64,000 nucleotides of DNA from Archangium violaceum (GTDB lineage Bacteria > Myxococcota > Myxococcia > Myxococcales > Myxococcaceae): positions 7,689,501 to 7,753,500 of the forward strand of contig NZ_CP069338.1 in assembly GCF_016859125.1 (NCBI RefSeq), written 5' to 3'. The translations under genes were made by a program, and so were the position numbers. Below, piece by piece: positions 8,778-40,075 of the stretch; the first letter of the stretch is position 1; the number at the start of each line of letters is the position of its first letter. The notes beneath the pieces are model-generated. The model was not told the origin of the DNA. It saw only the letters and a program-made list of their open reading frames with translations, and did no database searches.

Positions 8778-9080
8778 TCAGTCGTGCTCGGCGGCGGCCA
8801 GGAAGGGGCTCGAGCCCCCGGTGCCCGTTTGTTGGTGCCGCTCATATTCCAGAAGGATGGTCCTCTCCATCTGGTTGCGCGTGTCGGCGTTGAGCGGATG
8901 CGCGATGTCCTTGTACGTCCCGTCCTTCCGGCGCTTGGCCGGCATGGCGATGAACAGGCCGGACGCACCGTGAATGACTTTGAGATCCCGGATGACGAAA
9001 CAGTGATCCAAGGTGATGGTCACGTAGGCCTTCAGCTTATCCTCGTCGACCGGATACACCTTGACGTCGGTGATGTTCAT
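8778..9080 (-). CDS. spoVG: SpoVG family regulatory protein
   Basis: Predicted 100 residues. The start [20 protein letters not shown], the [20 protein letters not shown] core and [13 protein letters not shown] are the family signature. SpoVG proteins are small nucleic-acid-binding regulators that affect sporulation, virulence and cell division in Firmicutes. Homologues are conserved in myxobacteria, where the role is less clear. It sits just upstream of prs, as in Bacillus where spoVG is also near prs. Its start codon is preceded by three short repeats that can form alternative hairpins (9081-9107), which may control translation. Confidence 0.93.
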
Positions 9081-9107
9081 GGTCCCCCCCCGGACCTCCA
9101 GGGGTCC
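9081..9107 (-). promoter_or_regulatory. Alternative-hairpin leader immediately before spoVG
   Basis: On the minus strand GGACC (9103-9107), GGTCC (9092-9096) and GGACC (9081-9085) follow each other at 6-nt intervals, ending at the ATG. The middle copy can pair with either neighbour, and the only Shine-Dalgarno-like GGAGG lies at the junction of the first hairpin. The arrangement would allow the ribosome site to be opened or closed. Confidence 0.35.
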
Positions 9108-9172
9108 GAGCTAGCGGGGGAGACTGAGACAGACCGACCCGGAAAATCAAGTCTGTCCGGGCTTGTTGTACG

Positions 9173-9535
9173 TCAACCGACGCTTCGGAAGCACATGTGG
9201 GCCAGGAAGGCCAGATGGTAGATATCAATGACGGTGTAGAGCGCGGCCCCTGCCTGGATCGCCCGCTGGCTGATCCGCATGGAGCGGTGCAGGCACAGCA
9301 GCGTCAGCCCCAGACTCACGATGGCGAGCTTGGAGGCCATGAAGGCCAGGGGCGAGTGCTCGTAGGCCATCCGCATGAGCGGGTTGAGCTCCTCGGCCAC
9401 ATCCAGTTGTAAAAAGGTGAGGGTGAAGAGCCCGTCCAGCAGGTTGAGCACCAGCAGCAGGGCCGCTGCCGGGCTGATGTGGAACGAAGCGCCCTCGATA
9501 CCCGCCCAACGTGTTGCCTGCGTCGTCGCCGCCAC
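9173..9535 (-). CDS. DUF5658-like small membrane protein
   Basis: Predicted 120 residues from the GTG at 9533-9535, chosen because GGGGAGG lies 5 nt upstream. A longer reading from 9685 would only add low-complexity residues. Three hydrophobic segments are visible (about residues 18-36, 55-72 and 88-110), with LNLLDGLFTLTFLQ and ELNPLMRMAYEHSP typical of DUF5658 proteins, where a Glu-Leu-Asn-Pro motif follows the first helix. The function of the family is unknown. It is divergent from tdk, sharing the 122-nt region 9536-9657. Confidence 0.75.
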   Translation of the reverse strand: MAATTQATRWAGIEGASFHISPAAALLLVLNLLDGLFTLTFLQLDVAEELNPLMRMAYEHSPLAFMASKLAIVSLGLTLLCLHRSMRISQRAIQAGAALYTVIDIYHLAFLAHMCFRSVG

Positions 9536-9657
9536 CCGATCCTCCCCGATGGAATCCGGGCGGGGTTCTTCAAGATGCTTGCCAACAGGGAGGGGTGGGG
9601 GCTGGCGGGCGCCGCCTGGAGTGGTGGGCTCTTGAAAGTTGACGTGCCAGGAGGGGC

Positions 9658-10311
9658 GTGACACAGGAGACGCGCGATCCCGCACACGCCCCCGAGCGAG
9701 TCCTCCTCGTGCATCAATTTCCCACAGATATCGGGTGGATAGAGGTCATCTGCGGCTCGATGTACTCCGGCAAGACCGAGGAGTTGATTCGCCGCATCAA
9801 GCGTGCCGTATACGGCAAACAAGTGGTCCAGGTCTTCAAGCCGAAACTGGACATCCGCTACGACGAGACCCAGGTCGTCAGCCACTCCCAGCTGAAACTG
9901 ACGTCCATTCCGATTGAACGGGCTGAAGAAATTTTCCTTCACCTGTCCCCTCGAACCCAGGTGGTGGGTATCGACGAGGTACAGTTCTTCGGGCCCGAGG
10001 TGGTCCCGGTGTGTGAGGCCCTGGCCAATCGGGGGCTGCGCGTCGTCGTCGCGGGGCTGGACCAGGACTACCAGGGGCGCCCCTTCGAGCCGATGCCACA
10101 GCTGCTGGCGGTCGCCGAGTATGTGACGAAGCAACTGGCCATCTGCGTGGTGTGTGGGAATCCGGCCAATCGCTCGCAGCGGCTGGTGGATCGCGGGGAG
10201 CGGGTGGTGGTGGGAGCCGCCGGAGCCTATGAGGCGCGCTGCCGCAAGTGCCACCGGGCCGAGCCCACCGAGGCCACGCCTCCCCAGACGCTCGATTTGT
10301 TCAAGGACTGA
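9658..10311 (+). CDS. tdk: Thymidine kinase (type II)
   Basis: Predicted 217 residues, starting at a GTG with AGGAGG 5 nt upstream. The P-loop GSMYSGKTEELIRR (about 33-46), the DEVQFF Walker B-like segment (about 104-109), the lasso and two zinc-binding Cys pairs (CVVC near 163-166 and CRKC near 200-203) identify a type II, tetrameric thymidine kinase. It phosphorylates thymidine to dTMP for salvage. The N-terminal 25 residues extend beyond the E. coli enzyme. First gene of a plus-strand salvage operon with the uracil-PRTase-like gene (18 nt gap) and hpt (10 nt gap). Confidence 0.95.
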   Translation: MTQETRDPAHAPERVLLVHQFPTDIGWIEVICGSMYSGKTEELIRRIKRAVYGKQVVQVFKPKLDIRYDETQVVSHSQLKLTSIPIERAEEIFLHLSPRTQVVGIDEVQFFGPEVVPVCEALANRGLRVVVAGLDQDYQGRPFEPMPQLLAVAEYVTKQLAICVVCGNPANRSQRLVDRGERVVVGAAGAYEARCRKCHRAEPTEATPPQTLDLFKD

Positions 10312-10329
10312 ATCTCCGGAAGCCTGGCC

Positions 10330-11145
10330 ATGCGCGACACCCTCTACGCCAACGTCCCCTTCCAGTTGAGCGAGATGCCCCACCGGTACGGGCCCAACGT
10401 GCACCTGGTGGGCAATCCGTTCCTGCTCTCGCAGCTGGCGAAGCTGTGCTCCAAGGCGACGGTGCAGCCGGAGATCAACCGGCTGGTGGCGCTGCTCTAC
10501 TCGGATCTGGTGAAGACGGTCATCAACGCCGAGTTTCCGCGCAAGATGGTGGCCATGCCCACGCGGATGATCGATCACACGCCGCAGGGCATGTACCAGG
10601 GCGAGGTCATCGATCCGGCCGTGCGCGCGGTGACGGTGAACATCGCCCGCGCCGGCACGCTGCCCTCCCAGGTGGCGTACGATCTGCTCAACACCACGGT
10701 GGATCCGGTGCTGGTGCGACAGGATCACATCATCATGAGCCGGATGATCGACGCCAAGGAGACGGTGGTGGGGTCGAACATCGGAGGGGCCAAGATTGGC
10801 GGGGACATCGACGACGCGTTCGTCCTCTTCCCGGATCCGATGGGCGCCACCGGAGGCAGCCTGTGCACCGCGGTGTCCATGTACAAGGACAAGGTGCATG
10901 GCACGCCCCGGCGCATCCTCAGCCTCAACCTGATCGTCACCCCCGAGTTCCTGCGGAGGATTTCCCGCGAGCATCCGGATGTGGTGGTGTACGCGCTGCG
11001 CCTGGACCGCGGGCTGTCACCGCCGGAGGTGTTCGGCACGGTGCCCGGCGAGCTGTGGGAGAAGGAGCGGGGGCTGGATGACCGGCAATACATCGTCCCC
11101 GGTGGCGGCGGCTTCGGGGAGATCATGAACAACGCGTACGTGTAG
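10330..11145 (+). CDS. Uracil phosphoribosyltransferase-like protein
   Basis: Predicted 271 residues. The PRPP loop DPMGATGGS (about 174-182) and the C-terminal uracil-binding loop beginning YIVPGGGGFGE (about 255-265) are UPRTase hallmarks. Canonical Upp is about 208 residues with YIVPGLGDAGDR in that loop, so this is a longer and divergent member. The family converts uracil and PRPP to UMP. The conserved PRPP loop argues for an active phosphoribosyltransferase, but altered uracil-loop residues leave the base specificity open. Position between tdk and hpt supports pyrimidine or purine base salvage. The start was chosen 18 nt after tdk, and the ribosome site is weak. Confidence 0.75.
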   Translation: MRDTLYANVPFQLSEMPHRYGPNVHLVGNPFLLSQLAKLCSKATVQPEINRLVALLYSDLVKTVINAEFPRKMVAMPTRMIDHTPQGMYQGEVIDPAVRAVTVNIARAGTLPSQVAYDLLNTTVDPVLVRQDHIIMSRMIDAKETVVGSNIGGAKIGGDIDDAFVLFPDPMGATGGSLCTAVSMYKDKVHGTPRRILSLNLIVTPEFLRRISREHPDVVVYALRLDRGLSPPEVFGTVPGELWEKERGLDDRQYIVPGGGGFGEIMNNAYV

Positions 11146-11155
11146 AGGTAGGACC

Positions 11156-11689
11156 GTGGCTTTCTACGAGCAGGACGTCGGCACCCACATCGATGAGCAG
11201 AAGCTCCAGGCGCGCGTGCGCGAGCTGGGCGCTCAAATCACCCGCGACTATCAGGGCAAGGAGCTGACGCTCATCTGCGTGCTCAAGGGCTCGGCGTTCT
11301 TCGCCATGGATCTGGCGCGCTACGTGGACCTGCCGCTGACGATCGAGTTCCTCGGGGTGTCCTCGTACCAGGGCGGCACCGAGACGACCGGCGAGGTGCG
11401 CATCACCACCGACGTGAGCAAGCCCATGGCGGGCAAGCACCTGCTCATCATCGAGGACATCATCGACACCGGGCTCACCATGAGCTTCCTGCTGGAGAAC
11501 CTCAGGGCCCGGCACCCCGCGTCGCTCAAGGTGTGCACGCTGCTGGAGAAGCCGTCGCGCGCGCGCGCCCAGATTCCCATCGACTACAAGGGCTTCGTCA
11601 TCGACGACGTCTTCGTCGTGGGCTACGGGCTCGACTACTCCGAGCGCTACCGCAACCTCCCCTTCATCGGCGTGATGAAGGGGAAGTAG
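11156..11689 (+). CDS. hpt: Hypoxanthine-guanine phosphoribosyltransferase
   Basis: Predicted 177 residues, normal for bacterial Hpt, with a GTG start after GAGGTAGGA. The PRPP-binding motif LIIEDIIDTGLTM (about 101-113), ICVLKGSAFFAMDLAR (about 39-54) and GYGLDYSERYRNLPFIGV (about 157-174) are diagnostic. It converts hypoxanthine or guanine plus PRPP into IMP or GMP. Last gene of the tdk operon. It faces the minus-strand graspetide-like genes, with a strong hairpin at 11758-11775 between them. Confidence 0.96.
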   Translation: MAFYEQDVGTHIDEQKLQARVRELGAQITRDYQGKELTLICVLKGSAFFAMDLARYVDLPLTIEFLGVSSYQGGTETTGEVRITTDVSKPMAGKHLLIIEDIIDTGLTMSFLLENLRARHPASLKVCTLLEKPSRARAQIPIDYKGFVIDDVFVVGYGLDYSERYRNLPFIGVMKGK

Positions 11690-11757
11690 TCCGGCAGGTC
11701 CCCGGCCCGGCCCCCCGCACGAGGGGCAGCCGTGAGACCGGGCGCGCCAGGCAGGGC

Positions 11758-11775
11758 GGTGGGGCGGACCCCACC
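11758..11775. terminator. Bidirectional hairpin between hpt and the graspetide precursor gene
   Basis: Perfect 7-bp stem GGTGGGG/CCCCACC with loop CGGA lies in the gap between two convergent genes (hpt ending 11689, peptide gene ending 11804). There is no clear U-tract on either strand, so intrinsic termination is uncertain. Confidence 0.35.
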
Positions 11776-11803
11776 GTCTCTGCTCGGCTTCAAATGGGAC
11801 GGC

Positions 11804-11965
11804 TCAGCAGTCGGAGCAGCCCCCGGGCTCTTCGCCGCAGGCGAGGGTGGTGAACTCCGGGCACTTCGGATCCTTCGTCGCTCCGTTGCCACCTTCGATG
11901 CGCGCGAGGTCCTGCACGAACAGCTCCTTGATCTTCTTGGCCTTCTTCTCCTTCTCCTGCGCCAT
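11804..11965 (-). CDS. Putative graspetide (omega-ester peptide) precursor, plesiocin-like TTxxxxEE core
   Basis: A 53-residue peptide too short for most gene finders. The ATG at 11963-11965 has TGGAG about 6 nt upstream. The N-terminal leader is Lys/Glu-rich (MAQEKEKKAKKIKE), followed by LFVQDLARIEGG (residues 15-26), which looks like a RiPP recognition element plus a double-Gly end. The core has FTTLACGEEPGG: Thr39-Thr40, four residues, Glu45-Glu46. This is exactly the TTxxxxEE motif of plesiocin-type (group 2) graspetides, in which an ATP-grasp ligase joins Thr side chains to Glu side chains as esters. It lies 175 nt downstream of a same-strand ATP-grasp ligase gene. Only one core repeat is present. 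Four Cys (35, 43, 50, 53) are unusual and could add disulfides or metal binding. The assignment is by motif and context. Confidence 0.8.
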   Translation of the reverse strand: MAQEKEKKAKKIKELFVQDLARIEGGNGATKDPKCPEFTTLACGEEPGGCSDC

Positions 11966-11989
11966 GACGTTCTCCAGGATCGGATGACC

Positions 11990-12031
11990 CGCGGGCTCAT
12001 CCCGCGAAGGTCACAGGCTCAAGGGAGCCTG
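11990..12031 (-). promoter_or_regulatory. Two stem-loops between the ATP-grasp and precursor genes
   Basis: Perfect hairpins CAGGCTC-AAGG-GAGCCTG (12014-12031) and CGCGGG-CTCAT-CCCGCG (11990-12006) occupy the leader of the peptide gene. Neither has a U-tract on the minus strand. They could stabilise or process the precursor message so that substrate is made in excess over enzyme. This role is inferred. Confidence 0.35.
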
Positions 12032-12140
12032 CATCCCGAAGAACGGCTGTCGGCGCGAGCCCAGTCCATGAGGGCCAGGGGGCCTTTGCCCGCCCGGCGG
12101 CTCGCCCTTCGGCACACCGATCGCCAGGGGGCCGGTGGCC

Positions 12141-13097
12141 TCAGGGAATGGGAGAGCGTGCGGCCCTGGCGAGCGCCCGGGCGAGCTGGCCGAGCAGATC
12201 CGTGCCCGCGCGCGCATCGAAGCCGAGGAACATGGGCGAGGCGTTGAGCTCGAGGAAGCGCAGCGCGCCCCCTGCGTCGCGCTTGAGGTCCATCCCCGTC
12301 CAGCGCAGGCCCACCACCTCCGTGGCCCGCAGGCACTGGCGCGCCACCTCGGGCGGCAGCTCGAAGGACTCGATGCGCTCCTCGTTCTGCCGGAAGTCCA
12401 GCGCCCTGGAGATGATGCGCAGGCTGGCGACGATCTCTCCGTCGAGGACGTAGACGCGCACGTCCTCGCCGGGCATCAGCTCCTGGAAGGTGACGGGAGC
12501 GGCCTCCAATGCGGCGAGCCGTGCGTCCGTGAGATCCTCGGGCCCCAGCTCCTTCGTGGCCGCGCCGCCCTCGACGGGCTTGTAGGCCACGCGCCGCCCC
12601 GCGGCGAACCGGCGCACCGCCTCCGCGTCGTTCGTCCAGAGCGTCTCCGGCACCGGCAGCCCCGCGTTGGCCAGCAGCGCGAGCTGCACCGGCTTGGGCG
12701 TGCGCCAGTCCACGGAGAGCGGGTTGTAGAGGGGGACGCCCATCGCCTCCCAGCGTCCCACCAACCCCCGCAACAGGGTCATCTTCTCGCGAAAGGCCAC
12801 GAGCGTGGTGCGCCAGTCGTCATCCATCGCCTCGCGTGCATCCACTCCGAAGGCGAGCGGGTGCGCGTGATAGCCGCGCAGGTAGATGGCGCCGGGCCGC
12901 TCGAGACGGCGGCCATCCAGGATGATGCCCCCGAGGTCGTCCGTGAGCGCCAGACGCGTCTCCTCGGGGAAGGTGAGGGTGTCCACCACCAGGGTTTCCA
13001 CCCCTTCCTGCTCGACCCGGCGCGCCACCTCCGACACGTGCGCGTCCTCGCGGGAGCCCACGAAGAGCACGGGCCGGGCGGTCGGGTGGTTCGTCAT
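12141..13097 (-). CDS. ATP-grasp ligase, probable graspetide (PsnB/MvdD-like) macrocyclase
   Basis: Predicted 318 residues, the length typical of graspetide ligases. The N-terminal domain (VLFVGSREDAHVSEVARRV, then a DTLTFPEET segment) resembles the pre-ATP-grasp domain of microviridin-type ligases. The ATP-grasp domain shows AYKPVEGG with Lys173 as ATP ligand, FQELMPGEDVRVYVLDG (Asp212, Arg214), LDFRQNE (Asp234, Arg236) where these ligases carry the catalytic Asp/Arg, Asp270 and the Mg ligands Glu283/Asn285 in FLELNASP. RimK-like peptide ligases share the fold, so a glutamate ligase is the main alternative. The next gene on the same strand encodes a TTxxxxEE peptide, which strongly favours macrocyclisation. 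A repeat element separates it from the upstream beta-oxidation genes. No protease or transporter gene is adjacent. Confidence 0.85.
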   Translation of the reverse strand: MTNHPTARPVLFVGSREDAHVSEVARRVEQEGVETLVVDTLTFPEETRLALTDDLGGIILDGRRLERPGAIYLRGYHAHPLAFGVDAREAMDDDWRTTLVAFREKMTLLRGLVGRWEAMGVPLYNPLSVDWRTPKPVQLALLANAGLPVPETLWTNDAEAVRRFAAGRRVAYKPVEGGAATKELGPEDLTDARLAALEAAPVTFQELMPGEDVRVYVLDGEIVASLRIISRALDFRQNEERIESFELPPEVARQCLRATEVVGLRWTGMDLKRDAGGALRFLELNASPMFLGFDARAGTDLLGQLARALARAARSPIP

Positions 13098-13146
13098 GGG
13101 ACGTGGTTCTCCGCGTGGACAGGGGGGTTCAACCCGGGTTCACTCG

Positions 13147-13190
13147 ATACCCTCACCCTGACCCTCTCCCAGAGGGAGAGGGGACATTGG
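13147..13190. repeat. REP-like palindromic repeat, copy 1
   Basis: Sequence TACCCTCACCCTGACCCTCT-type followed by the palindrome CCCTCTCCC (13162-13170), AGA, GGGAGAGGG (13174-13182). The same element recurs at about 40036, 42329 and 62115. Here the stop codon and last ten codons of the acyl-CoA dehydrogenase gene lie inside it. Confidence 0.75.
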
Positions 13191-14310
13191 CGAAGCGGGT
13201 CAGGTGGAAATCGGCGTCTCCGAAGGTCCGGTCGATCGCGGTCAACCGCTTGAAGTAGTGGCCGGCGCTGTACTCCATCGTAGTGCCGATTCCTCCGTGC
13301 AGCTGGATCGCCCATTGTCCGATGAAGCGGCCGGACCGGCCGATCTGGACCTTGGCCGCCGAGATCGCCTTGGTGCGCGCCTGGGCGTCGGTGCTGTCCG
13401 CGCGGTCCGCGGCCAGGATCGCCATGGATCTGGCCTGCTCGTGGGCGATGTACATGTCCACCATGTGGTGCTGCAGCACCTGGAAGCTGCCAATCGGCAC
13501 GCCGAACTGGGTGCGCGTCTTCAGATAGTCGAGCGTCACCTCGTTGAGCGCCTGCATGTTGCCCACCGCCTCCGAGCACAGGGCGGCGATGCCTCGATCG
13601 ATCGTCTGCTCGATGAACGGAAACGCGCCTCCCTCCGGTCCCAGCAGCGCCGAGCCCGGTACCCGCACTCCCACGAGCATCACTTCCGCGGCGCGGGTGC
13701 CGTCGACGGTGGGGTAGCCGCGGATCTTCAGGCCCGGTGCGCCGCGCTCGACCAGGAACAGTGACAACCCGTCCCGGTCGCTCGTCTTGCCCGCCGTGCG
13801 CGCCGAGACGATCAGCCTGTCGGCGCAGTCACCCCCGAGCACCACCGCCTTGGCTCCGTCGAGCCGGTAGCCGTCCGCCTCTCGCTTCGCCGTGGTCTCC
13901 ACGTGGGTGAGCGAATAGCGCGACCGGGGCTCACCATGGGCGAAGGCCAGGAACATCCCGCCCTCGGCCACGCGGGGCAGCAGCTCGGACTTCTGGGCCT
14001 CGTTGCCAGCGGCCCGGATGAGGCCCGCTCCCAGGACGACCGTGGGGATGAAGGGCTCCACCACCATTCCGCGGCCGAATGCCTCCAGGACGATCGCGAG
14101 ATCCTGGAAGGTGCCACCAATACCTCCGTGCTCCTCGGGGATCTCCACCCCCAGCAGGCCCAGCTCGGCGAAGGTGGCCCACATCTTCCGGGAGAAACCG
14201 TCCTCCGATGCCAGGAGCTTCGCCCGCTCCTCGAAACCGTAGCGTTCGCGGATGAGACGGGCGGCGGTGTCTCGCAGCATCTGCTGCGTGTCGCTCAGAT
14301 TGAAGTCCAT
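13153..14310 (-). CDS. Acyl-CoA dehydrogenase, pimeloyl-CoA dehydrogenase small-subunit-like
   Basis: Predicted 385 residues. The N-terminus MDFNLSDTQQMLRDTAARLI, LGLLGVEIPEEHGG (about 51-64) and LEAFGRGMVVEPFIPTVVLG are characteristic of the small subunit of pimeloyl-CoA-dehydrogenase-type flavoenzymes. The C-terminal QLHGGIGTTMEYSAGHYFKRL matches the family FAD/helix region. It would oxidise an acyl-CoA to the enoyl-CoA, passing electrons to ETF, together with the large subunit encoded 27 nt upstream. The real C-terminus of the family lies at about DADFHLTRF. The extra VPSPSGRGSG here is encoded by an inserted palindromic repeat that also supplies the stop codon. Confidence 0.9.
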   Translation of the reverse strand: MDFNLSDTQQMLRDTAARLIRERYGFEERAKLLASEDGFSRKMWATFAELGLLGVEIPEEHGGIGGTFQDLAIVLEAFGRGMVVEPFIPTVVLGAGLIRAAGNEAQKSELLPRVAEGGMFLAFAHGEPRSRYSLTHVETTAKREADGYRLDGAKAVVLGGDCADRLIVSARTAGKTSDRDGLSLFLVERGAPGLKIRGYPTVDGTRAAEVMLVGVRVPGSALLGPEGGAFPFIEQTIDRGIAALCSEAVGNMQALNEVTLDYLKTRTQFGVPIGSFQVLQHHMVDMYIAHEQARSMAILAADRADSTDAQARTKAISAAKVQIGRSGRFIGQWAIQLHGGIGTTMEYSAGHYFKRLTAIDRTFGDADFHLTRFANVPSPSGRGSG

Positions 14311-14337
14311 GTGGCTGTCGCTCCTTTCCGCTCCGAC

Positions 14338-15534
14338 TCAGAGGCCGAGCACGGCCTTGGCCAGGATGTTCCGCTGGATCTCGTTGGAACCGCCGTAGAT
14401 CGTCACCTTGCGGTAGTTGAAGTAGTCCGGCGCCAGCGGGGCCGCGTACGCCGGACCGATCGGCTCGCCCTTCCACCCGTGCTCTCGCGCCTCGGGGTTG
14501 TACGGCAGCGCGTAGGGGCCCACTGCCTCCATCATCAGCTCGGTCAGGGTCTGCTGGATCTCCGAGCCCTTGATCTTCAGCATGTTGGCCTCGGCTCCCG
14601 GCGCCTGGCCGGACTGCTCGGCGGCGATCATGCGCAGGTTGGTCAGCTCCAGCGCCATCAGCTCGATCTCCACCGCCGCGACCTTCTCGCGGAAGCCCGG
14701 GGTCTCCATCAGCGGCACGCCGTCGGCCTTCTCCTCGGTGGCGATCTTCTTCAGCCGCGCCAGCTCCGCCTTCGAGCGGCCGATCCGCGCGATGTTGGTG
14801 CGCTCGTGGCCCAGCAGGAACTTGGCGTAGCTCCAGCCCATCCCAGGTTGGCCCACGATGTTCTCCTTCGGCACCCGCACGTTGTCGAAGAAGACCTCGT
14901 TGACCTCGTGCGCACCGTCGACGGTGATGATCGGACGGAGCGTGATGCCTGGCGTGCTCATGTCCGCCAGCAGCATGGAGATGCCCTGCTGCTTCTTGGC
15001 CGCCGGATCCGTGCGCGCCAGCAGGAAGATCATGTTCGCGTACTGGCCCAGGGTGGTCCACGTCTTCTGCCCGTTGAGCACCCACTCGTCGCCGTCGAGC
15101 TCCGCCTTCATCCGCAGCGAGGCCAGGTCCGAGCCCGAGCCCGGCTCGGAGAAGCCCTGGCACCACCAGTCGTCCATCCGCAGGATGCGCGGCAGGTAAT
15201 AGTCCTTCTGCTTCTGGCTGCCGTAGGCAATCAGCACGGGGCCGATCATGCTCAGGCCGAAGGGCAGGGCCTGGGGTGCTCCCTCCTCGGACAGCACCTC
15301 GTCGAAGAGGTATTTCTGGACCGAGGTCCAGCCGGGACCGCCGTACTCCTTCGGCCAGTGCGGCGCTCCCCAGCCTCGCGCGTGGAGCCGGCGCTGCCAC
15401 TCGACCTGCTCCTCCTTGCCGAGGTGCTGGTGTTGGAGGACCCGGTCACGCGTCTCGGGAGGGAGGTTGGCCCGCACCCACTGCCGGACTTCGTCGGCGA
15501 AGGCGAGTTCCTCGGGGGTGTAGTTCAGATCCAT
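14338..15534 (-). CDS. Acyl-CoA dehydrogenase, pimeloyl-CoA dehydrogenase large-subunit-like
   Basis: Predicted 398 residues starting MDLNYTPEELAFADEVRQWV. The start was chosen by family pattern; codons further upstream are not conserved-looking. Signatures are WCQGFSEPGSGSDLASL (about 122-138), NGQKTWTTLGQYAN (about 148-161), the GYSYAKFLLGHERTNIARIG-like region and the C-terminal YGGSNEIQRNILAK. It pairs with the small subunit next downstream, as in pimeloyl-CoA or cholesterol side-chain type heteromeric acyl-CoA dehydrogenases. Middle gene of a three-gene minus-strand beta-oxidation operon. The exact acyl-CoA substrate is unknown. Confidence 0.92.
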   Translation of the reverse strand: MDLNYTPEELAFADEVRQWVRANLPPETRDRVLQHQHLGKEEQVEWQRRLHARGWGAPHWPKEYGGPGWTSVQKYLFDEVLSEEGAPQALPFGLSMIGPVLIAYGSQKQKDYYLPRILRMDDWWCQGFSEPGSGSDLASLRMKAELDGDEWVLNGQKTWTTLGQYANMIFLLARTDPAAKKQQGISMLLADMSTPGITLRPIITVDGAHEVNEVFFDNVRVPKENIVGQPGMGWSYAKFLLGHERTNIARIGRSKAELARLKKIATEEKADGVPLMETPGFREKVAAVEIELMALELTNLRMIAAEQSGQAPGAEANMLKIKGSEIQQTLTELMMEAVGPYALPYNPEAREHGWKGEPIGPAYAAPLAPDYFNYRKVTIYGGSNEIQRNILAKAVLGL

Positions 15535-15587
15535 GGTGCTCTCCAGGGAGTGTCTTTGGATTCGTCGGGTGTGAGCCTGCTCGGGGT

Positions 15588-17672
15588 TCAGACCGCCTGC
15601 GCGAAGCCCTTGCCCTCGGCGACCAACCGCTCCAACAGCGGGGACGGCGTCCACCAGCGAGGCCCGTGCTGACGCGCGTACTCGCGGATCCTCTCCAGGG
15701 CCTTGGGCAGGCCGAGCTCGTGCTCCGCCCAGAACATCGGGCCACCCCGGTGGGCCGGGAAGCCGTAGCCGTAGAGGTAGACGATGTCGATGTCGCTGGC
15801 CCGGTAGGCGATGCCCTCGCGCAGCACCTCGCAGCCGATGTTCACCATGGCCAGGAAGCAGCGCTCGAGGATCTCCTGCTCGCTGAGCTCCCGGCGCTTG
15901 ATGCCGTATTGCGCGGCCGTCTCCTCGATCACCCGGGCGACCACGTCGGAGGGGATGGGCGTGCGCTGGCCCGCCTCGTAGTCGTAGAAGCCCGCCTTGG
16001 TCTTCTGGCCGAGCCGGCCCATCTCGACCAGCTTGTCCGCCACGGCTCCGGACTTGACGTCGAAGGTGCCCGGCTCCCGGTCCTTGCGCGACTTGTAGCC
16101 AATGTCGAGGCCGGCCAGGTCGAACATCTGCAGCACACCCATGGGCATGCCGAACTTCACCAGGGCCTGGTCCACCTGCTGCGGCGTGGCGCCCTTGAGG
16201 ACCAGCAGGCTACCCTCACGCCCGTAGCCCTCCAGCATGCGGTTGCCGATGAAGCCGTGGCAGTTGCCGGCGACCACGCCCACCTTCTTGATGCGTTTGG
16301 CGACGTCCAGCGCGGTCGCCAGCACGTCCGGCGCGGTCCGGGCTCCACGGACGATCTCCAGCAGCTTCATGACGTTGGCGGGGGAGAAGAAGTGCATCCC
16401 CAGCACGTCCTCCGGCCGCGAGGTGTAGCCGGCGATGGTGTCGATCGACAGGTACGAGGTGTTGCTGGCCAGGATGGCGCCCTTCCTGGCGACCCGATCC
16501 AGGGTCTCGAAGACCTTCTTCTTGACCTCCAGCGTCTCGAACACCGCCTCGATGAGGAGGTCCGCGTCGGCCAGCGCGTCGTAGGACAGGGTCGGTTTGA
16601 TGAGGCCCATGCGGGTCTCCACCTGCTCCGACGTCAGGCGCCCCTTGGCCGCCGTGGCCTCGTAGTTCTTGCGGATGACGCCCAGGCCCCGGTCCAGCCC
16701 TTCCTGGTTCACCTCCAGGAGCGTCACGGGAATGCCGGCGTTCGCGAAGTTCATGGCGATGCCACCGCCCATGGTGCCCGCGCCAATGATGCCCACCGAC
16801 TTGATGGTGCGCGGCTTCACGTCCGCGGGCAGGCCGGGGATCTTCGCGACCTGGCGCTCGGCGAAGAAGACGTGCTGGAGCGCCTTGGCCTGGCTGCTCT
16901 TCGCGCACTCGAAGAACAGCTCCTGCTCGCGCCGGATGCCTTCATCGAAGGGCAGGGTGACCGCGGCCTCCACCGCGTCGATGATGCGCTGCGGGGAGAA
17001 GAGGTTGCGCTTCTCCTTGGCGGTGCGCTGGCGCGCGGCATCGAAGAAGCCGGCGGGGATGGAGCTCGGGGAGAGGGTGATGTCGCGGACCCGGCGCCGC
17101 GGCGAGCCGCTCTTCTCCCGCGCGAAGGCGACGGCGGCCTCGGTCAGGTCGCCCACCACGAGCTTGTCGATGGCGCCCATCTCCTGCGCGGCGGGGGCCG
17201 GGATCGGGTCTCCGGAGATCATCGCCTGCAAGGCGGGCTCGACGCCGGCCAGCCGCGGCAGACGCTGGGTGCCGCCAGCTCCCGGCAGGATGCCCAGCTT
17301 CACCTCGGGCAGGCCGACCTGGGCGTTCGCCAGGGCCACGCGATAGTCGCACGCCAGCGCGACCTCGAAGCCGCCGCCAAAGGCCGTTCCGTGGATCGCC
17401 GCCACCACCGGCTTGGAGAAGGCGTCGAGCGCGTCGATCACCTCCGGCAGGCTCGGGAGCCTGGGCGGGCCGCTGAACTCGGAGATATCGGCGCCCGCCA
17501 TGAAGGTGCGCCCGGCGCAGGCGATGACCAGGGCCTTGATGGTGCTGTCGGATTCGGCCTGCTTCAGCCCTTCGAGCATCGCCACCCGTACGGCCTGGCT
17601 GATGGCGTTCACCGGAGGGTTGTCGATCCAGAGGATGCCAACGTCACCATGCGCTTCGAAGCGTCCCGACAT
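15588..17672 (-). CDS. Multifunctional enoyl-CoA hydratase / 3-hydroxyacyl-CoA dehydrogenase (FadB/FadJ-like)
   Basis: Predicted 694 residues. The N-terminal crotonase domain (about 1-185) has HGTAFGGGFEVALACDYR and LPEVKLGILPGAGGTQRLP, with the oxyanion-hole glycines and a catalytic Glu. A linker follows, then the NAD-binding domain with VGIIGAGTMGGGIA (about 293-306), GMHFFSPANVMKLLE and GNCHGFIGNRML, and two C-terminal 3HCDH domains ending near 694. It hydrates enoyl-CoA and oxidises 3-hydroxyacyl-CoA. The length and order match the peroxisomal bifunctional-enzyme-like class (about 700 residues) rather than E. coli FadB (729). First gene of the operon with the two acyl-CoA dehydrogenase subunits. 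No thiolase is nearby. Confidence 0.93.
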   Translation of the reverse strand: MSGRFEAHGDVGILWIDNPPVNAISQAVRVAMLEGLKQAESDSTIKALVIACAGRTFMAGADISEFSGPPRLPSLPEVIDALDAFSKPVVAAIHGTAFGGGFEVALACDYRVALANAQVGLPEVKLGILPGAGGTQRLPRLAGVEPALQAMISGDPIPAPAAQEMGAIDKLVVGDLTEAAVAFAREKSGSPRRRVRDITLSPSSIPAGFFDAARQRTAKEKRNLFSPQRIIDAVEAAVTLPFDEGIRREQELFFECAKSSQAKALQHVFFAERQVAKIPGLPADVKPRTIKSVGIIGAGTMGGGIAMNFANAGIPVTLLEVNQEGLDRGLGVIRKNYEATAAKGRLTSEQVETRMGLIKPTLSYDALADADLLIEAVFETLEVKKKVFETLDRVARKGAILASNTSYLSIDTIAGYTSRPEDVLGMHFFSPANVMKLLEIVRGARTAPDVLATALDVAKRIKKVGVVAGNCHGFIGNRMLEGYGREGSLLVLKGATPQQVDQALVKFGMPMGVLQMFDLAGLDIGYKSRKDREPGTFDVKSGAVADKLVEMGRLGQKTKAGFYDYEAGQRTPIPSDVVARVIEETAAQYGIKRRELSEQEILERCFLAMVNIGCEVLREGIAYRASDIDIVYLYGYGFPAHRGGPMFWAEHELGLPKALERIREYARQHGPRWWTPSPLLERLVAEGKGFAQAV

Positions 17673-17773
17673 TCGCCTTGTCTCCTTTTCTTGCCGCCCC
17701 TCTCTACCAAGATTCCCCAGCGAAAATGGGGACTCCTGGTGTCACGTTCTCGCATTGGTTGGGGGGGTTACAC

Positions 17774-18295
<522 letters not shown>

Positions 18296-18391
18296 GGGGC
18301 ACGTCTCCTCGTGGGCCCGCACGTATACCGCACGGGGCGCGGATGAACCGCGCCCCCGGATTCCTCCACCCTCCGTGCGTTCGACAGGCGC

Positions 18392-40035: not shown

Positions 40036-40075
40036 GATACCCTCACCCCGACCCTCTCCCAGGGGGAGAGGGGAG
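40036..40075. repeat. REP-like palindromic repeat, copy 2
   Basis: GATACCCTCACCCCGACC followed by CCCTCTCCC (40052-40060), AGG, GGGAGAGGG (40064-40072). It lies between two convergent genes (stops at 39994 and 40078). The flank and core are nearly identical to copy 1. Confidence 0.75.

Follow-up and report, generated by a model that had tools for sequence, protein, structure and literature searches.

A very probable group 2 graspetide synthetase and its four-cysteine, single-core precursor in Archangium violaceum, with a candidate transporter at a second precursor locus

The DNA analysed here, referred to below as the window, is a stretch of 64,000 nucleotides from Archangium violaceum (NCBI RefSeq assembly GCF_016859125.1, contig NZ_CP069338.1, positions 7,689,501 to 7,753,500 of the forward strand). 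It very probably encodes, judging from homology, a group 2 (plesiocin-type) graspetide synthetase together with one precursor peptide, that is, a pair belonging to an established group. In the reading that we favour, and that is considered probable as a whole, this synthetase, PsnB, would modify both the precursor encoded beside it and a second precursor encoded elsewhere in the genome, a transporter at that second locus would export both, the cysteines of the peptides would form disulfides, and the product would act as a protease inhibitor. The argument is built on sequence, homology, conservation, synteny and co-occurrence, from which all of the chemistry, the action in trans, the export and the target are predicted.

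The features of the locus are presented in Table 1. A sequence-only reading had described an ATP-grasp frame and a 53-residue peptide frame on the same strand, 175 nt apart (11966-12140), with the peptide gene situated between hpt and the ligase gene. All of this was confirmed, as was the presence in the peptide of Gly25-Gly26 and of Thr39-Thr40 separated by four residues from Glu45-Glu46. That reading made no reference to the four cysteines (35, 43, 50 and 53) or to the absence of the transporter and fusion genes that close relatives possess. The sequence GGAG (11972-11975) is found upstream of the precursor ATG. A scan of the locus yielded no promoter-like or terminator-like sites around the precursor and PsnB genes, and an Rfam scan of the locus gave no match.

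Table 1. Positions, within the window, of the graspetide genes, of the predicted functional residues of the precursor and of the adjoining regions
Feature	Positions	Strand	Remarks
Ligase frame	12141-13097	-	318 aa, ATG start; PsnB-orthologous graspetide synthetase (ATP-grasp), as judged by homology
Precursor peptide frame	11804-11965	-	53 aa, ATG start; single TTxxxxEE core, 4 Cys
Leader recognition motif LFVQDL (residues 15-20)	11906-11923	-	Aligns to LFIEDL of the PsnA2 chain in 7drm
Gly25-Gly26, predicted C39-type leader cleavage site	11888-11893	-	GG in 25/25 distinct Cys-type precursors listed (the search pattern itself required GG)
Cys35	11861-11863	-	Spacing conserved in G002, G005 locus A and So ce26
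Thr39-Thr40, predicted ester donors	11846-11851	-	[ST]T kept in relatives (search patterns required it)
Cys43, within TTLACGEE	11837-11839	-	Cys here in 25/25 distinct Cys-type precursors listed (search pattern: Cys or Leu)
Glu45-Glu46, predicted ester acceptors	11828-11833	-	Invariant in precursor alignment
Cys50	11816-11818	-	From alignments of relatives
Cys53, C-terminal residue	11807-11809	-	From alignments of relatives
hpt	11156-11689	+	On the other side of the precursor from the ligase
Unmatched short stretch	11693-11749		G002 has a C39-ABC transporter and a 56-aa membrane protein here (~2.5 kb)
Segment outside the system	13106-17791		Two acyl-CoA dehydrogenases and one enoyl-CoA hydratase/3-hydroxyacyl-CoA dehydrogenase; G002 has the fusion here

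The best PDB match of the ligase was 7drm (316 bits, E 2.2e-93, over residues 6-310), chain A of which we take to be PsnB. The next entry, 5ig9, presumably a microviridin-type ligase, scored 52 bits, and the best glutamate-ligase entry 41 bits. The crystallised enzyme matched here is that of entries 7drm-7drp, in which the partner chain is named PsnA2(14-38) precursor peptide. On these scores, the 318-residue protein is identified by homology as an orthologue of PsnB, the plesiocin synthetase, and not as RimK.

The full 53-residue precursor is MAQEKEKKAKKIKELFVQDLARIEGGNGATKDPKCPEFTTLACGEEPGGCSDC. Residues 15-46 of this peptide can be aligned to the minimal PsnA2 substrate contained in 7drm (LFIEDLGKVTGGKGG..YTTLAIGEE in PsnA2; LFVQDLARIEGG..FTTLACGEE in the window). 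Since this match alone has an E value of 0.32, the substrate being just 25 residues long, the weight for the LFxxDL leader is placed on conservation; LF and an acidic residue after it are kept among the relatives of the precursor. The TTxxxxEE core motif was reportedly tied to group 2 graspetides by Lee et al. in 2020, and the PsnA2 chain in 7drm is consistent with this. Close to where an open stretch ends, the bare core motif was found once in the window, whereas 40 shuffles gave 0.45 occurrences on average, and alone it is not significant. The full pattern LF[IVL]x[DE]L - GG - [ST]TxxxxEE, likewise close to the end of an open reading frame, was observed once in the window and in none of the 40 shuffles.

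It had been proposed that the small frame would be conserved beside the ligase in related genomes, and this is the case. PsnB loci numbered 28, comprising 27 from 26 of the 195 genomes of the phylum set (E far below 1e-100) and that of Sorangium cellulosum So ce26. At 26 of these 28 loci (groups g1, g11, g15 and g23, and Sorangium So ce26), a single-core precursor with an LFxx[DEG][LW]-type leader is located by PsnB. No precursor was found in the regions searched around PsnB in G133 and G143; the regions of G019, G133 and G138 were ended by contig ends. A chance peptide is ruled out by this conservation across genera, although a shuffled window would on average be expected to contain about 0.45 copies of the bare motif. 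GG is absent from the aligned Cys-free precursors of G015, G125, G019, G027 and G144, in the last case although the PsnB of that genome has a linked transporter.

By homology, the LFVQDL leader would dock the precursor onto the PsnB-type enzyme, which would phosphorylate Glu45 and Glu46; Thr39 and Thr40 would then attack, and the expected product would contain two nested omega-ester rings around Leu41-Gly44. A C39-type transporter would cut after Gly25-Gly26 and export the core. The mature product is predicted, by analogy with plesiocin, to inhibit a serine protease.

At the same chromosomal place, the close relatives G002 and G005 contain the precursor, PsnB, a C39 peptidase-ABC transporter, a 56-residue membrane protein and a 590-residue fusion protein, flanked by hpt on one side and by the counterpart of window positions 17774-18322 on the other. 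Positions 9000-11692 and 11750-13105 of the window align with G002, whose transporter stretch has no counterpart between them, and positions 13106-17791 have no match to G002 where the fusion stands. It is apparent from this synteny that the window locus is compact because the transporter and fusion genes of its close relatives are missing. Locus B of G003 and G005, as well as the locus of So ce26, also carries transporter and fusion, which suggests that the direction of change was a loss on the window's side.

A second precursor, with two Cys and 59% identical to the first, was found in the same genome (G000:C1:328.5 kb), followed by a transporter with an intact 736-residue frame that contains C39, membrane and ATPase domains (G000:C1:328.7-330.9 kb). 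This locus is 7.37 Mb from the window along the contig, or approximately 5.3 Mb in the opposite direction should the chromosome be circular. Neither PsnB nor the fusion was observed within the 20 kb taken at the second locus, and its alignment to locus B of G003 and G005, where all of the parts are present, stops at the end of the transporter. The two loci are thus complementary, since the ligase is located at one and the transporter at the other. Four C39 genes were found in the window's genome, of which only the one at the second locus adjoins a gene of the system. As this sole system-linked C39 gene lies beside a precursor that has no ligase, it is most likely that the window's PsnB would modify both the local and the second-locus precursors and that the second-locus transporter would export both. 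Each of the remaining three C39 genes is, however, a possible exporter of the peptide.

The same loci could be viewed as a decaying remnant, a cluster that is losing genes and whose peptide may still be cross-linked while no longer being exported or used. Transporter and fusion are missing on either side of the precursor-PsnB pair, the second locus is without PsnB, and two of the six members of the genus (G001 and G004) have neither PsnB nor the precursor. In addition, 13.7 non-synonymous (Nd) and 2.8 synonymous (Sd) changes over 53 codons were estimated for the precursor on the window's branch, a ratio of 1.31 (G002, 0.21; G005, 0.34). The numbers are small, however, and this fast change in the remainder of the sequence is compatible both with relaxed constraint and with diversification; LFVQDL, GG, TT, EE and all four Cys are unchanged on that branch. 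PsnB is likewise intact, and in the three-genome comparison had 22.8 non-synonymous and 36.8 synonymous changes on the window's branch, with per-site Nd/Sd values of 0.23 for the window, 0.20 for G002 and 0.43 for G005, which indicate that the ligase evolves under constraint. Given also the intact frame and domains of the second-locus transporter, decay is considered unlikely, and a system divided between two loci is the preferred reading.

A profile built from nine precursors was searched against the phylum set, with matches in 22 of the 195 genomes. A marginal match in G103 (E 0.0095) was dropped from the counts. Weak matches from a separate precursor search, two in G024, one in G042 and a second in G002 (E 0.018-0.085), were without the leader pattern and were also dropped before counting. 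The candidates scored were a subset of the initial ones, 34 per genome in the precursor search, 11 in the PsnB search and 6 in the fusion search, so that genes may be missed. In total, 27 Cys-type precursor genes were found in 16 genomes, and five of these genes adjoin PsnB. The other 22 consist of the one at the second locus and 21 in 12 genomes of group g23 (Myxococcus/Pyxidicoccus-type). Searches near those 21 genes (16 regions of 12.9-20 kb) with PsnB, transporter, fusion, the 56-residue protein and three more queries gave no match at E<=1e-4, and all 12 genomes contain a PsnB with a linked transporter elsewhere.

Unlinked precursors were present in 13 of the 26 PsnB-bearing genomes versus none of the remaining 169 genomes in the phylum set. 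A transporter was found beside a system gene in all 16 genomes with Cys/GG precursors (G000 being counted by the transporter beside its second precursor, not beside PsnB) versus none of the 10 PsnB genomes without such precursors. In those ten (five from g23 and five from g11/g15, so that the genomes without a linked transporter represent g11/g15 plus part of g23), no Cys/GG-type precursor was found, and the absence of the transporter was judged within 14-20 kb around PsnB; five of them have matches to the ATPase part of the transporter only (33% identical, 54-98 bits). These co-occurrence counts are not independent, because 12 of the genomes form one genus-level group, and p-values derived from them overstate the evidence because the genomes are related.

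It appears that, in the Myxococcus/Pyxidicoccus-type genomes, Cys-type precursors encoded at dispersed chromosomal sites would depend on one PsnB and its transporter. A broader proposal, to which we would give about an even chance, is that in myxobacteria a single PsnB and one C39 transporter function as a central workshop for dispersed Cys-rich precursors, that the products combine ester rings with Cys cross-links or a metal site, that a dedicated oxidase, the C39-like/VKOR/thioredoxin fusion, takes part in some lineages, and that the window is a split example of this. Among class II lanthipeptides, the prochlorosins and SyncM similarly involve one promiscuous synthetase and many precursors, although their chemistry and enzyme are unrelated to those of PsnB. 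Many of those precursors are presumably unlinked to the synthetase. The graspetide mining procedure of PMC13097080 scores precursors near a synthetase. Neighbourhood-based surveys of this kind would miss precursors such as those described here, since for 22 of the 27 Cys-type genes the surrounding stretch that was inspected contained no synthetase.

The spacing of the core cysteines, CX7CX6CX2C, is common to the window, G002, G005 locus A and So ce26. The sequence-only reading had predicted a doubly ester-crosslinked single hairpin; because the four Cys are kept in the nearest orthologues, this description may understate the product. The PsnB-linked precursors of g11, g15 and g23 contain no Cys, the 25 distinct Cys-type sequences listed contain 2, 4 or 5 per precursor, and mapping the Cys trait onto the PsnB tree requires three changes. 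The Cys residues would most likely form disulfides after export, with Cys43-Cys50 and Cys35-Cys53 as our guess for the pairs. A rule of even Cys number was dropped when five-Cys cores were found, and since many unlinked precursors have five Cys, disulfides alone do not explain all of the cores.

The VKOR domain of the fusion scored 52.1 bits (cut-off 27.5), and its thioredoxin (23.0; cut-off 23.2) and C39-like (20.3; cut-off 22) parts fell just below their cut-offs. Profile comparison matched the C39-like part to the C39 domains of the transporters with 97% probability (E 5e-11), and also to ComA and ABC-type bacteriocin transporter entries. The catalytic Cys found in DCGPACL is missing from this domain, whereas the fusion retains the Cys pairs of its VKOR and thioredoxin domains. 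At each of the five loci where fusion and PsnB adjoin, the stop codon of the former overlaps with the start codon of the latter in the sequence ATGA. The fusion was found in 4 of the 195 phylum genomes; among 377 genomes sampled from the phylum of So ce26, So ce26 itself was the only one with a match at E<=1e-25. Among PsnB-linked loci, it is present at five of the six with Cys (the window being the sixth), at none of the 20 Cys-free ones and at neither of the two without a precursor. A search of the window's genome yielded no fusion; three VKOR genes exceed the cut-off there, one of which encodes a VKOR-thioredoxin protein.

The suggestion that Cys precursors require the fusion was abandoned, as it is absent from 12 of the 16 genomes with such precursors (genome-level Fisher p 0.14) and is thus not generally needed. 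In some relatives, Cys oxidation may be aided by this dedicated C39-like/VKOR/thioredoxin protein, which the window's genome lacks. The Cys residues could instead be thioester donors or metal ligands, for which the five-Cys and CC..CC cores among the unlinked precursors, and the non-native thioesters possible with graspetide synthetases (PMC13097080, PMC12291112), might be cited. Cys-type cores still contain the Thr/Ser-Thr donor pair, however, which the search patterns required, and a VKOR-thioredoxin fusion with kept Cys pairs overlaps the PsnB start codon at five Cys loci, so that we find this improbable and prefer disulfides. If this is true, Cys cross-links with a dedicated oxidase would represent a further secondary modification of graspetides, in addition to the acetylation, methyl ester/aspartimide and aminomalonate known to the authors of PMC13097080.

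The protein family searches bear on the identity of the ligase. Twelve NCBIfam models were listed for it, all distant and none above its cut-off; the highest was TIGR04187 (ATP-grasp ribosomal peptide maturase; 79.1 versus 350 bits), and MvdC (49.1 versus 425) and MvdD (60.4 versus 475) were also below theirs. Apart from the window's gene, the genome contains one microviridin-type pair and two RimK-type genes among ligase-like sequences (E<=0.01). In a tree of 32 rows, PsnB groups with the query set, apart from these own-genome MvdC/D-type and RimK-type ligases, with a support of 88/86 that was not starred and with long branches. The tree includes 25 of the 28 PsnB loci (without G142, G150 and G153) and was midpoint-rooted for drawing only; the own-genome MvdC/D rows bear N-terminal extensions. 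A RimK-type glutamate ligase with a small frame beside it by chance is hardly credible and is effectively ruled out: the Pfam label of the protein is RimK-like (45.9 bits, the sole curated cut-off passed among NCBIfam and Pfam models), but TIGR00768 (RimK) reached 54.5 bits against a cut-off of 143.4, the PsnB match is six times as strong as that to the next PDB entry, the tree sets the protein apart from the RimK-type genes that the genome already possesses, and the precursor is kept across several genera.

With plesiocin (PsnA-PsnB), the window pair shares synthetase orthology, an LFxxDL leader followed by GG, and a TTLAxGEE core. Plesiocin has four core repeats (PMC12291112), whereas the window precursor has one and is thus not tetravalent; the window also differs in its four core Cys, in having no linked transporter and in its unlinked second precursor. 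A single group 2 synthetase makes all of the linkages (PMC8939145). The chemistry of graspetide synthetases is summarised in PMC13097080, where plesiocin is given as a serine protease inhibitor and a high co-occurrence of group 2 graspetides with an NHLM-type transporter is reported. Gra-5 from Glaciecola sp. KUL10, also of group 2 and with fewer rings than plesiocin, was observed with a single dehydration (PMC9576775) and is likened to the window peptide by description. Microviridin MvdC/MvdD are likewise ATP-grasp RiPP maturases, but the microviridin leader (PFFARFL) and core differ from those of the window precursor (PMC8939145).

An ester together with disulfides in one peptide is already in print for the stryphnines, sponge knottins with a side-chain Ser-Glu ester. 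These are animal-derived, their authors found no ATP-grasp enzyme or known recognition motif, and they are not a graspetide system (PMC13418204). The fusion of the relatives resembles bacterial VKOR-thioredoxin proteins in its VKOR and thioredoxin domains with Cys pairs, but differs in its extra N-terminal C39-like domain without the catalytic Cys and in its overlap with the synthetase gene. VKOR does not appear in the table of commonest associated families in PMC8939145, nor do the words 'epoxide', 'thioredoxin' and 'disulfide' in its main text. Among the titles and abstracts listed by searches of the open-licence literature, none was found that deals with Cys-linked graspetides accompanied by a VKOR protein or with graspetide precursors that are unlinked.

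Several further observations were made. A 32-nt repeat containing an internal inverted repeat occurs at window positions 13150-13181 and 40040-40071; one copy, located at the border of the segment in which the window and G002 differ, forms the tail of an acyl-CoA dehydrogenase frame. The microviridin-type MvdC/MvdD-like pair lies at G000:C1:275-277 kb and scores 372.6 and 400.3 bits, below the curated cut-offs of 425 and 475. The 56-residue membrane protein (L053:10264-10434), encoded between transporter and PsnB, has a weak DUF3040 match below cut-off, and accompanies the linked transporter in g1 and g23, not in So ce26. In G003 and G005, a ThiF-family protein and an 81-residue protein are encoded immediately upstream of the precursor at locus B (L051:9062-9898, L052:7333-8334), and neither had a match near the unlinked precursors (16 regions).

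A stop lies inside eight distant PsnB-like matches of genus g26; in two of these (L061, L062) it is read as an overrun of the gene end, since the frames are open for 312 and 313 residues. A PsnB-like gene (37%) in G002 (G002:C1:8647 kb; L060:7710-10236), found with a 2OG-Fe(II) oxygenase and a 176-residue frame, recalls the group 15 clusters that are said to be restricted to Corallococcus (PMC13097080). G002 is not of genus g26, which we infer to be Corallococcus, and would thus be outside that genus. A record titled Comamonas sp. KCTC 72670 (L073/L102) carries a Myxococcus-type PsnB locus and is probably mislabelled. Finally, the fusion was also observed in G134:C6 (L088:8266-11630), in a cluster with a grasp-with-spasm ATP-grasp protein (TIGR04192, 266 bits; cut-off 230), where it adjoins a two-Cys precursor-like frame.
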